Assembly (NCBI GenBank): GCA_029561345.1
Contig: JAKQJC010000034.1
Coordinates: 124,001 to 188,000, forward strand
DNA: 64,000 nt
Origin: Chloroflexota bacterium
GTDB taxonomy: Bacteria > Chloroflexota > Anaerolineae > Anaerolineales > Anaerolineaceae
Direction of reading: 5' to 3'
Below, one piece after another: positions 41,936 through 45,569 of the stretch. The position numbers and the translations under genes were made by a program. A model generated the notes under the pieces. That model searched no databases and was not told the DNA's origin. It was given only the letters and a program-made list of their open reading frames with translations. Numbering within the stretch: position 1 is the first letter of the stretch; each line of letters starts with the position of its first letter.

Positions 41936-42275
41936 CTACTCTTCGACAGAGAAATAACCGCGCTGCACCAGCGTGTAATTCACATAGAGTTCCACGCTGT
42001 AACTGCCATGTCATTGGCGATTTTCATCTGTTCTGTCAGGGCAGCTTCCTATTCCGCGCTAACATTGGGCAAGCCGTTTGTTGCGCCAGTAATTGACATC
42101 ATTTTCACACGACTCGTAGGCGTTAACCGCATTCAGGGCCCGCGTTTCTTCGGCATCGCCTGAGCCGTCTTCAACGACGGAGGCGCGCCAGACAACAACG
42201 GCGCCAATCACCACTACCACGGCAATGAGAATGGCAACGGCGATTTCAAAAGGGCTGGTTTTCTTCTTGTTCCAT
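41936..42275 (-). pseudogene. Decayed small membrane-protein gene
   Basis: Three minus-strand frames together give one protein-like reading. From an ATG at 42275 the frame stops quickly, but the +1 frame reads KKKTSPFEIAVAILIAVVVV, then a helix end and GDAEETRALNAVNAY, ending at TAG. A second frame then gives EAALTEQMKIANDMA, interrupted by stops, and a third gives YSVELYVNYTLVQRGYFSVEE and TAG at 41936. The parts fit an N-terminal membrane helix followed by a helical domain. At least two frameshifts and a stop indicate a pseudogene. Function unknown. Confidence 0.7.
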
Positions 42276-42385: not shown

Positions 42386-43138
42386 TCAAATTATCAAGAG
42401 GTCTGCCAGTTTTTTGGCGTCAAAATCCACCAGGATCGTCCCATCAATATCAAAAGTGGGTGTGGTCTCATTGCCGTTGGCCCATTCGCGCACCTGGCGG
42501 GCAGCTTTTGGGTTGATTGAGATATCCACTTCGGTGTAGGAAATGCGGTGTTCCTTCAACCAGGCGCGGGCATTCCGGCAGTCGGAGCACCAGGGCGTGC
42601 AATACATCACCACGCCGCCGTGCGGCAGTTCAAATTCAGCATCTGCTTTTTCAATGGCAGCATAGACTTTGGCGGCCGAGGGGTCCACCTGTTTCAGGAC
42701 GGCAAACAGCACTTCGTTATCGGGCTGGTCAGAAATTTCGTGGATATCGATATATTGGATGACGCCCTTTTTATCGAGCACGAAGATGGCGCGTTCCGTA
42801 AAGCCATCCGGCCGCAGCACGCCGTATTTTTTTGCCACCCTGCCGTGAGGCCAAAAATCGCTCAGCAGCGGGTAGGTGATGCCGCCCAGGCTGGCTGCCC
42901 AGGCTTTGAGACAGGGAATGTGATCCACAGAGATACCCAGAACCTGGGTATTTAATCCCGCGAACCGGGCCAGATTGGCCTGATAGGACGGGATCTGGCT
43001 GGTTCATATGGGGGTGAAGGCCAGGGGGAAGAATGCCAGCACCACGTTTTTTCCTCGCAAATCTTTCAAGGTGACAGATTTGTCGAGGTGGCCGGGCAGG
43101 GTAAAATTTGGGGCTTTTTGTCCTACCTGTAAAAGCAT
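42386..43138 (-). CDS. Probable selenocysteine-containing peroxiredoxin-glutaredoxin fusion (in-frame TGA = Sec45)
   Basis: 250 residues if the TGA at 43004-43006 is read as selenocysteine. ATG 43138 has AAGGAGG upstream. Residues 1-~160 are an AhpC/TSA peroxiredoxin: [12 protein letters not shown], then [20 protein letters not shown], where U sits exactly at the peroxidatic Cys of the usual FTPVCT motif. The frame continues unbroken through [16 protein letters not shown]. Residues ~175-250 are a glutaredoxin domain with CTPWCSDC. Downstream of the TGA a 7-bp stem GCCAGAT/ATCTGGC (42969-42999) could form a bacterial SECIS. It would reduce peroxides with electrons passed through the fused Grx. 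A nonsense mutation at this codon is the alternative. selABCD genes are not in the window. Confidence 0.82.
42969..42999 (-). promoter_or_regulatory. Candidate SECIS stem-loop after the in-frame TGA
   Basis: Minus strand: GCCAGAT (42993-42999) pairs with ATCTGGC (42969-42975), beginning four bases after the TGA, with a 17-nt top containing a CCT/AGG mini-stem. A competing fold pairs ATCCCG with CGGGAT and GGCC with GGCC. Distance suits SelB-dependent decoding, but the expected G at the start of the apical loop is not obvious. Confidence 0.4.
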
Positions 43139-43289
43139 GAAACCTCCTTATCAATAAGAGTGGGCGGCCATTTGCAAAAAACATTCAGCAGCCGCTGTCA
43201 AACACAGATGAAGTAATTATAGACTGAAGCGGCCTGCAGATTCAACCTTCAGAGGCGGCTTTTTTGAAAATATGGGTTAAAATCAAGCC

Positions 43290-44360
43290 ATGTTTTCCAA
43301 GTGGCGTTTCCTGATCATTTTTACAGTGCTGACTGTGCTGGCGGCTGGCTGCGGCGTGACAACCCCTGCGGCCACCCCTGAGACGGCTGTCCCGCAGCCC
43401 ACTGAGGCACAGGTGCGGGTCACCATAACGGCTGCCCCAACGCGGGAGATTCAGGCCACCCCGCCTGAAATGAAGGTGGAACCCACGGCGGTTCCAACGG
43501 CCGCACCCAAACCCACCCTGGACCTTGAATTGAAAACCTGGCCGGCCGAAGTGCAGGTGGAATGGGCGGATGTTTGGGATGACCCGGCCAAAGAAAAGAG
43601 CTATTGGAACCGGCAGACGCAGCTGCTTTTGGGGGAGCGGGTGCGCGTGGTGGCTGAAGCCGGCGATTGGGCGCAAATTGTGGCGGTGCAGCAGCCTTCC
43701 TCCAAAGACCAGCAGGGTTATCCGGGCTGGGTGCGGCGCGAGGCGCTTTCGGCCGGGTGGAGCGATGGACCGCAGTGGGCGGTGGTGATGATGCAGACGG
43801 TTCCCCTGTATGCAGAGGCGGATGAAGCTGCGAAAATCATCCTGCGCCTGCACCTGGATGTGCGCCTGCCAGTGATGAGCGCGGATGAGCAATGGGTGCA
43901 GCTGCGCCTGCCGGGCGGGCGCTCGGGCTGGGCGGCGCGGGCAGGCTTGCGCCTGGCAGCCGACCCGGATGCTGCGGCGCCACTGGACGGCATCTGGGAT
44001 ACGGCGCTGACCCTGCAGGGGCGGCCCTACCTGTGGGGCGGTGCAAGCGGCTATTCGCTTGATTGTTCCGGTTTTACCTACCGTCTGTTTCACGCTTACG
44101 GCATTGCGCTGGCCCGCGATGCCAATGACCAGGCGCTGCAAGGCCAGGCTGTGCCGGCGGGCGCCTGGCGCATGGGGGATCTGTTCTTTTACAGCGATGT
44201 GGTAAACGGGCCGGTGACCCATGTGGTGATGTATTGGGGCGATGGCCAGGTGATGGATGCGGAACCGGAACTGGGCCTGACCCTGCACCCCATGGCGGAT
44301 TTGAGCCAGCATTATGTCTGGCACAGTGCCCGGCGCATGCTGCCAGAAGGGACAAAATGA
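43290..44360 (+). CDS. NlpC/P60-family lipoprotein with SH3-like repeats
   Basis: 356 residues. Lipobox LAAGC lipidates Cys21; a Thr/Pro linker follows to ~75. Two SH3b-like domains (~80-155 and ~160-228) precede an NlpC/P60 cysteine peptidase with YLWGGASGYSLDCSGF (catalytic Cys259) and VTHVVMY (His311). Such enzymes cut peptide stems of peptidoglycan. First of several envelope genes on the plus strand; the next gene starts 54 bp later. Confidence 0.92.
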   Translation: MFSKWRFLIIFTVLTVLAAGCGVTTPAATPETAVPQPTEAQVRVTITAAPTREIQATPPEMKVEPTAVPTAAPKPTLDLELKTWPAEVQVEWADVWDDPAKEKSYWNRQTQLLLGERVRVVAEAGDWAQIVAVQQPSSKDQQGYPGWVRREALSAGWSDGPQWAVVMMQTVPLYAEADEAAKIILRLHLDVRLPVMSADEQWVQLRLPGGRSGWAARAGLRLAADPDAAAPLDGIWDTALTLQGRPYLWGGASGYSLDCSGFTYRLFHAYGIALARDANDQALQGQAVPAGAWRMGDLFFYSDVVNGPVTHVVMYWGDGQVMDAEPELGLTLHPMADLSQHYVWHSARRMLPEGTK

Positions 44361-44414
44361 GATCTGGCTGAGAAACAGGCCGAAATCTCTTGCCTGTTTG
44401 GCCTGCTGTGGATT

Positions 44415-45569
44415 ATGATAAAACCCATGAAGCGTTTTGGATTGGTATTGTTATTGGGTCTGACGGGGCTGCTGGTTAGTCTTTTGGCGGCCTGCGGCCG
44501 GCCCGCGCCAGCGCCGACGGCCACCCCGACGGCCAGTTTCACGCCTGCGCCATCGCTGACCCTGACGGCCTCACCGGCATCGCCGGCAGCGCTGACGCCC
44601 ACGGTGACAGCCACCCCCACCATCACGCCGACTCCCACCCCGACGATCACCCCCACGCCAGAACCTCTTGGCAGCACAGCCAATCCTTTGGTCATGGGGA
44701 TTGTTTTGCCGGAGATGGACGCCCTGCGCGAATCCAATTATATCGAAATTGCCGCGCGCCTGGGCGACCAGACCGGAGCGGCGGTGCAGGTTTTGACCCT
44801 GGCCTCTTATGAGGAACTGCTGGAAAAGCTGGAAATGGGCAGCGTGCATATGGCCTGGATGCCGCCTGCCACCTATGTTTATGCTCACCAACGCGGCCTG
44901 GCCACGGTGGCTCTGGTGACGAATCATTACGGGGTGTATGCTTATGGGACGCAATTTATGGCGCGGGTGGATTCGGGCATGTCCACTTACTATGACCCCA
45001 AGGCTGACAAGGTGACGGCCCCAGGCGATGCGGCCATGCAGCAGCTGGCCGGACTGCGGCCGTGCTTTGTGAGCGAAACCTCGGTTTCGGGGTACCTGGT
45101 GCCGGCCGGACTGATGCGCAAGGCTTCGGCGCCGACCCGCGAGCCGGTGTTTGCCCAGTCATCGGGCGGGGTGGTGCGCGCGGTGTATGCCAAAGACATT
45201 TGCGATTTTGGCGCCACCTATGCCATTTCCGGCGATCCGCGCACCGCTTCGTCTATTTTGGAACAGTTTCCAGATGTGCTTTCAAAAGTGATGATCTTGT
45301 GGCGCACAGAAGCTATCATTCCTAACCTGAACGTGTCCTACACACCCAGCCTGTTTGACAATGCCAACCCGGCAGCGGTGGGGCTGCGGTCACGCCTGAC
45401 GGCGGCTCTGATTGCCATTGCCGGAACGAACGAAGGCAAGGCGCTGTTGAGCACAGCCAATGATTATAATATTGAAGGGTTCCAGGAAGCTGAGGACGCG
45501 CTTTATGATCCTCTGCGGGATCTCTGGCTTGAATCGGGGCTGAGTTTGGAGCCTTTCATCGGACAATGA
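44415..45569 (+). CDS. PhnD/transferrin-like periplasmic binding lipoprotein
   Basis: 384 residues. Lipobox LLAAC (Cys near 28), then an unusually long TPT-rich linker (~30-90). The body has the two-lobed type 2 periplasmic-binding-protein pattern of PhnD-family proteins: NPLVMGIVLPEMDALRES, VLTLASYEELLEKLEMGSVH, AWMPPATYVYAH. Family members bind phosphate/phosphonate-like oxyanions for ABC import, but no permease or ATPase lies next to it, so substrate and role are open. The downstream SanA-like gene begins 10 bp later. Confidence 0.85.
   Translation: MIKPMKRFGLVLLLGLTGLLVSLLAACGRPAPAPTATPTASFTPAPSLTLTASPASPAALTPTVTATPTITPTPTPTITPTPEPLGSTANPLVMGIVLPEMDALRESNYIEIAARLGDQTGAAVQVLTLASYEELLEKLEMGSVHMAWMPPATYVYAHQRGLATVALVTNHYGVYAYGTQFMARVDSGMSTYYDPKADKVTAPGDAAMQQLAGLRPCFVSETSVSGYLVPAGLMRKASAPTREPVFAQSSGGVVRAVYAKDICDFGATYAISGDPRTASSILEQFPDVLSKVMILWRTEAIIPNLNVSYTPSLFDNANPAAVGLRSRLTAALIAIAGTNEGKALLSTANDYNIEGFQEAEDALYDPLRDLWLESGLSLEPFIGQ

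Follow-up and report, generated by a model that had tools for sequence, protein, structure and literature searches.

A probable selenoprotein in Chloroflexota: an AhpE-type peroxiredoxin fused to a mycoredoxin-like glutaredoxin, with a candidate tandem-hairpin SECIS element

Mycoredoxin-1 of Mycobacterium tuberculosis reduces the peroxiredoxin AhpE (Rv2238c) directly, according to the account of Hugo et al. 2014 given in PMC4360819. Among PF00578 proteins, selenocysteine (Sec) as the peroxidatic residue is known from the TxxU Sec-peroxiredoxins, including PrxU of Eubacterium acidaminophilum (PMC13188914), and peroxiredoxin-glutaredoxin fusions carrying Cys have been described, from proteobacteria only (PMC2679010). 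Bacterial SECIS elements are modeled with 16–37 nt between the UGA and the apical loop and with a G[G|U] loop pattern, and some putative elements deviate from this distance rule (PMC13188914); the SECIS of Escherichia coli fdhF is ggttgcaggtctgcacc (PMC3834832).

The gene described here brings together, as a single polypeptide, relatives of two cooperating proteins, AhpE and mycoredoxin-1 being direct partners. Its peroxiredoxin domain belongs to the AhpE subfamily by both sequence and fold, sharing catalytic position 45 and Arg116, and its partner domain is closest to Rv3198.1; it differs from the mycobacterial pair in having a predicted Sec in place of Cys, in being a single chain and in its non-actinobacterial host. 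With PrxU it would share a peroxidatic Sec within a TxxU motif, but it is of another subfamily and adds a glutaredoxin. The Haemophilus peroxiredoxin-glutaredoxin fusion is of the Prx5 type. The present gene has the same domain order as the proteobacterial fusions, but it is of the AhpE type, has a predicted Sec and occurs mainly in Chloroflexota. As far as open-licence papers show, this AhpE/mycoredoxin-like seleno-fusion and the tandem-hairpin SECIS proposed for it are new, the protein itself falling within a known superfamily, and an earlier description is possible.

The gene lies on the minus strand of a 64,000-nucleotide stretch of DNA, hereafter the window, from a Chloroflexota genome assembly of 4.24 Mb that is 92% complete (G000). 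Translation from ATG 43138 confirmed that the frame continues to a terminal TGA at 42386 with a single interruption, the TGA at 43006–43004 (codon 45). The features are as follows, all on the minus strand.

43143–43149, minus strand: Shine-Dalgarno-like AAGGAGG, just 5' of ATG 43138, read from the sequence
42386–43138, minus strand: whole putative selenoprotein gene, 250 codons plus terminal TGA, open when the in-frame TGA is read through
42692–43138, minus strand: AhpE-type peroxiredoxin domain, residues 1–149 (Pfam AhpC-TSA; best PDB relative M. tuberculosis AhpE)
43004–43006, minus strand: in-frame TGA, predicted Sec45 at the peroxidatic position (TGA in 67 of 109 homologous loci, TGC or TGT in 42)
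42954–42995, minus strand: hairpin H1, which would be a folded spacer within the SECIS (two-sided changes at 9 pairs)
42933–42951, minus strand: hairpin H2 (AUACCCAGGUUCUGGGUAU), proposed SelB-binding hairpin (96.9% paired in Sec copies)
42911–42913, minus strand: Cys76, which may be a further redox residue (conserved as Cys in 63 of 71 fused relatives, otherwise Ser or Thr)
42389–42616, minus strand: mycoredoxin-like glutaredoxin domain, residues 175–250, with CTPWCSDC (C180, C184 and C187; Pfam and PDB 2lqo)

As the initial annotation had anticipated, a gene caller misses the enzyme: a plain open reading frame call yields only a fragment of 180 amino acids, starting at GTG 42928. Downstream on the same strand, a small frame at 42274–42050 (MEQEENQPF) runs into a TGA at once, with hydrophobic EIAVAILIAVVVVIGAVVVW open in the next frame past a run of T; this break is a frameshift by error or decay, and recoding is unsupported. 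Divergently transcribed on the plus strand at 43290–45569 are an NlpC/P60-SH3 protein and a phosphonate-type substrate-binding protein, which have no obvious redox or selenium link.

Domain identities were established by comparison. The first domain matches Pfam AhpC-TSA (5e-39, residues 5–130), and in M. tuberculosis AhpE the residue aligned with codon 45 is the catalytic Cys, in agreement with the earlier placement of the TGA at the catalytic Cys. An AlphaFold model computed from the alignment reached a pLDDT of 94.3 (36 without the alignment, a run that was not used), and Foldseek ranked AhpE structures highest against it, with a TM score to the target of 0.93 at 40% identity. The domain is closest to AhpE and has the residues that mark this subfamily, namely P38, T42, the peroxidatic residue 45 and R116; among relatives, P38, C45 and R116 are invariant and T42 is nearly so. 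C76 could act as the resolving residue of the AhpE-type domain. The second domain matches Pfam glutaredoxin (3e-14, residues 176–234), its nearest PDB relative is 2lqo (Rv3198.1/MT3292), which we take to be mycoredoxin-1, and none of the 71 fused relatives compared deviates at its C180, C184 or C187. Because the peroxiredoxin domain scores 66 bits against the PrxU model NF040737 (cut-off 270) and the glutaredoxin domain 52 bits against the mycoredoxin model TIGR02200 (cut-off 89.5), the two are not filed as members of these NCBIfam families; no NCBIfam model covers this seleno-fusion.

Comparison likewise established the exchange of Sec and Cys. Homologues were collected with search patterns that left out the codon-45 position, and the codon reads TGA at 67, TGC at 26 and TGT at 16 of the 109 homologous loci, with no other codon present, while the fused TGA copies of the set contain no further stop in the aligned frame. 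The exchange expected for a selenoprotein is thus a clean swap at one column, with no other disruption. There are 62 distinct fused Sec homologues, and Anaerolinea thermolimosa IMO-1 (L053) is a cultured carrier. In the tree, Cys copies arise in at least four places within the Sec fusion clade (L031 with L041; L131; L132 with L133; L127–L130 with L134), corresponding to at least four replacements of Sec by Cys; L132 with L133 and L127–L130 with L134 are Cys lineages without Sec machinery, and both hairpins are degraded in the Cys copies.

The genome itself is equipped for Sec insertion, as a search for selA, selB, selC and selD revealed: it has one tRNA-Sec above the Rfam cut-off, with anticodon tca (ARAGORN), and profile matches to SelB (325 bits), SelA (513 bits) and SelD (347 bits), the selD gene itself containing one in-frame TGA. 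In a comparison drawing on 147 genomes of the same family, SelA or tRNA-Sec was detected in 52 of the 53 genomes with a TGA copy versus 3 of the 10 with a Cys copy (Fisher 1.7e-6, kinship ignored). Since three Cys genomes retain the machinery, replacement by Cys is not a consequence of machinery loss alone. Neither SelA nor tRNA-Sec was found in one TGA genome (G051), which carries the fusion and a TGA-containing selD; this is probably an assembly gap, because the assembly is in 770 contigs. Together, the machinery, the clean exchange and the domain matches support the selenoprotein peroxiredoxin-glutaredoxin proposed in the initial annotation.

The RNA behind the UGA was compared across the same copies. 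The initial annotation had pointed to a stem-loop beginning four bases past the TGA; this element does fold in the present sequence (−18.7 kcal/mol, z −3.9), but it is not kept in relatives and was rejected as the SECIS. The conserved signal consists of H1 and H2 (alignment columns 12–53 and 56–74), which has no match in Rfam. When synonymous codons were permuted with the protein held constant, the 54 nt after the UGA gave a mean z of −2.53 in Sec copies, 50 of 61 falling under −1.64, versus +0.32 and 0 of 9 in Cys copies; a 42-nt window, which truncates H1, gave a weak signal (mean z −0.92). RNAalifold returned an energy of 0 over the H1 region, and pair counts for the named structure were used in its place together with the synonymous shuffles. 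Over 65 Sec sequences, H1 and H2 are paired in 85% of cells, a count biased in favor of the structure because this was derived from the same sequences; independent of this bias are the contrast with Cys copies and the two-sided changes, which number 95 cells versus 35.5 in shuffles.

The outer stem of H1 is of the AUCCCG/CGGGAU type with compensated variants such as CCCUUC/GAAGGG, and the inner stem covaries too; in H2, column pair 58–72 is A-U in 38 sequences and G-C in 24. H1 pairs in just 79% of cells in Sec sequences, three outer positions often failing. The six core pairs of H2 are complete in 53 of 58 Sec copies versus 9% in synonymous shuffles, and in none of the Cys copies (0 of 10 and 0 of 40). 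Mean pairing of H1 and H2 is 79% and 97% in Sec copies, 54% and 56% in fused Cys copies, and 36% and 53% in other Cys copies. The RNA signal also appears to dictate a residue of the protein: the GU of the H2 loop comes from codon 66, and 61 of 62 Sec proteins have Val at this residue, whereas 8 of 9 Cys proteins have Ile or Met. One fused copy with the TGA (L065) is without H2 and may be decaying or relying on another signal.

A covariance model of the signal (R1) also matches Cys homologues, and because these matches arise from sequence alone, its scores fail to separate Sec from Cys; the two were told apart by pair counts instead. Searching with the model extended the set of Sec AhpE homologues to others across the phylum (37–67% identity), most with both hairpins, a result that shows range and not frequency, since the search favors sequences with H2. 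Both hairpins also occur in L108, an unfused actinomycetotal copy that was found without the model, and its H1 differs considerably. Two unfused Sec copies, L083 and L084, come from assemblies assigned to Thermodesulfobacteriota and Myxococcota but are nested within the Chloroflexota fusion clade, which points either to a transfer in which the glutaredoxin was lost or to misbinning of contigs.

The selD gene of the genome has the same SECIS core as H2, CAGGUUCUG: its TGA is followed by GGCGCAGGUUCUGCGCC, which contains this core with the loop G at +33. In the family, CAGGUNCUG is present in 38 of 49 selD genes with TGA, and no such SelB-type hairpin was found in the Cys selD genes. Like the E. 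coli fdhF SECIS, H2 has the CAGGU(U)CUG motif and agrees with the published G[G|U] apical pattern (CAG-GUU-CUG) (PMC3834832; PMC13188914); in contrast to fdhF and the canonical elements, its loop G lies at +60 from the UGA, outside 16–37 nt, with a conserved hairpin in between. In the Sec-type selD genes of the family (L015, L166–L176 and L304–L343), the UGA is followed first by a small hairpin (AGCGC-GGAA-GCGCU type) and then by the SelB hairpin in 47 of 50 cases, versus 5.0 on average and 11 at maximum in synonymous shuffles; the small hairpin also occurs in the compensated versions AGUGC/GCACU and AACGC/GCGUU. A second, Cys-type selD in long frames (~735–800 codons) is present in the same genomes (L147, L149–L156 and L158–L165) and is probably the known NADH dehydrogenase-SelD fusion. 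A second, paralogous Sec peroxiredoxin, of the AhpC type with TGA at the peroxidatic position (FTFVUPTEL), is observed in relatives (L272–L276), and has a SECIS-like hairpin, CGGCAGUUGCCG, ~13 nt after the UGA as read by hand.

Between the UGA and the SelB hairpin, the fusion gene has ~10 unpaired nt (8 + 2), compared with 12 for selD and 13 for the AhpC-type gene, and from this similarity we conclude, less firmly than for the other points, that H1 is probably a folded spacer presenting H2 to SelB. On balance we also favor a bacterial class of tandem-hairpin SECIS elements, in which a first hairpin would fold away coding sequence of variable length so that a SelB hairpin located far downstream stands at an almost unchanging effective distance of 10–13 unpaired nt from the UGA. 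Such a class would span two unrelated genes of Anaerolineae, the fusion (42-nt spacer hairpin, +60) and selD (14-nt, +33); these were the only convincing cases in a genome-wide scan for the SECIS core with an upstream TGA.

Other explanations of the stop at codon 45 fare poorly. A lone in-frame stop in one metagenome-assembled genome would permit a pseudogene, an assembly error or a chance event, but we rejected these because the same TGA recurs in 67 loci from many assemblies, the alternatives are purely Cys codons and no second stop is found in the fused TGA copies. The protein is moreover conserved on both sides of the TGA and the RNA elements are specific to TGA copies, leaving such an origin with negligible probability. 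Reading of the TGA as tryptophan or another standard amino acid, through an altered code or plain readthrough, would fit the open frame on both sides; it is contradicted by the TGA that ends the gene itself, and likewise 27 of 83 fused homologues, while the exchange residue is always Cys and the genome has tRNA-Sec, SelA, SelB and SelD, and we regard it as extremely improbable. The comparison thus indicates that codon 45 is almost certainly read as Sec.

How the hairpins would act allows more latitude. H1 might itself be the SelB-binding SECIS at canonical distance, with H2 as an accessory: its apical loop begins ~29 nt past the UGA, within the 16–37 nt range (PMC13188914), and the stem is kept by compensatory changes. 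The H1 loop, however, varies freely and is mostly without the G[G|U] pattern, whereas that of H2 hardly varies, conforms to the pattern and is the same as the selD core, making this arrangement unlikely. The hairpins could also act in pausing, or let selenium determine whether a product of 44 residues or the full protein is made, since both hairpins are directly behind the UGA, where pausing structures act, and eukaryotic selenoprotein mRNAs offer a parallel in their UGA-proximal redefinition elements. This role would be compatible with Sec insertion anyway, but the H2 core is that of the selD SECIS and both hairpins are lost along with the UGA, and we consider it very unlikely.

The preferred reading, which we consider likely, is a selenoprotein composed of a one-(Sec/Cys) AhpE-type peroxiredoxin with Sec45 as the peroxidatic residue and a fused mycoredoxin-like glutaredoxin, with H2 recruiting SelB and H1 as spacer. 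For Sec insertion, we infer that UGA 45 would be decoded by tRNA-Sec and SelB recruited by H2, whose apical CAGGUUCUG would be the SelB motif of this lineage. H1, between the UGA and H2, would fold away ~42 nt and leave ~10 nt unpaired, so that H2 would be positioned like a standard SECIS hairpin. For the catalytic relay, we infer that Sec45 would reduce peroxide and become a selenenic acid, to be reduced by the tethered CxxC (C180/C184), the glutaredoxin domain then being recharged by a cellular thiol reductase as the putative electron donor. The initial annotation had assigned recycling to a glutaredoxin; the role proposed here is more specific, because mycoredoxin is the known partner of AhpE, the nearest relative of the peroxiredoxin domain.

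With relatives of two M. tuberculosis redox partners in one chain, this relay is directly testable, and the Sec-to-Cys changes with degraded hairpins provide natural controls. The tandem-hairpin class, if true, would account for SECIS elements that escape current predictors. A widespread gene with its SelB motif 60 nt from the UGA, beyond a conserved folded spacer, would extend the 16–37 nt rule for bacterial SECIS elements and point to selenoproteins presently annotated as truncated genes.
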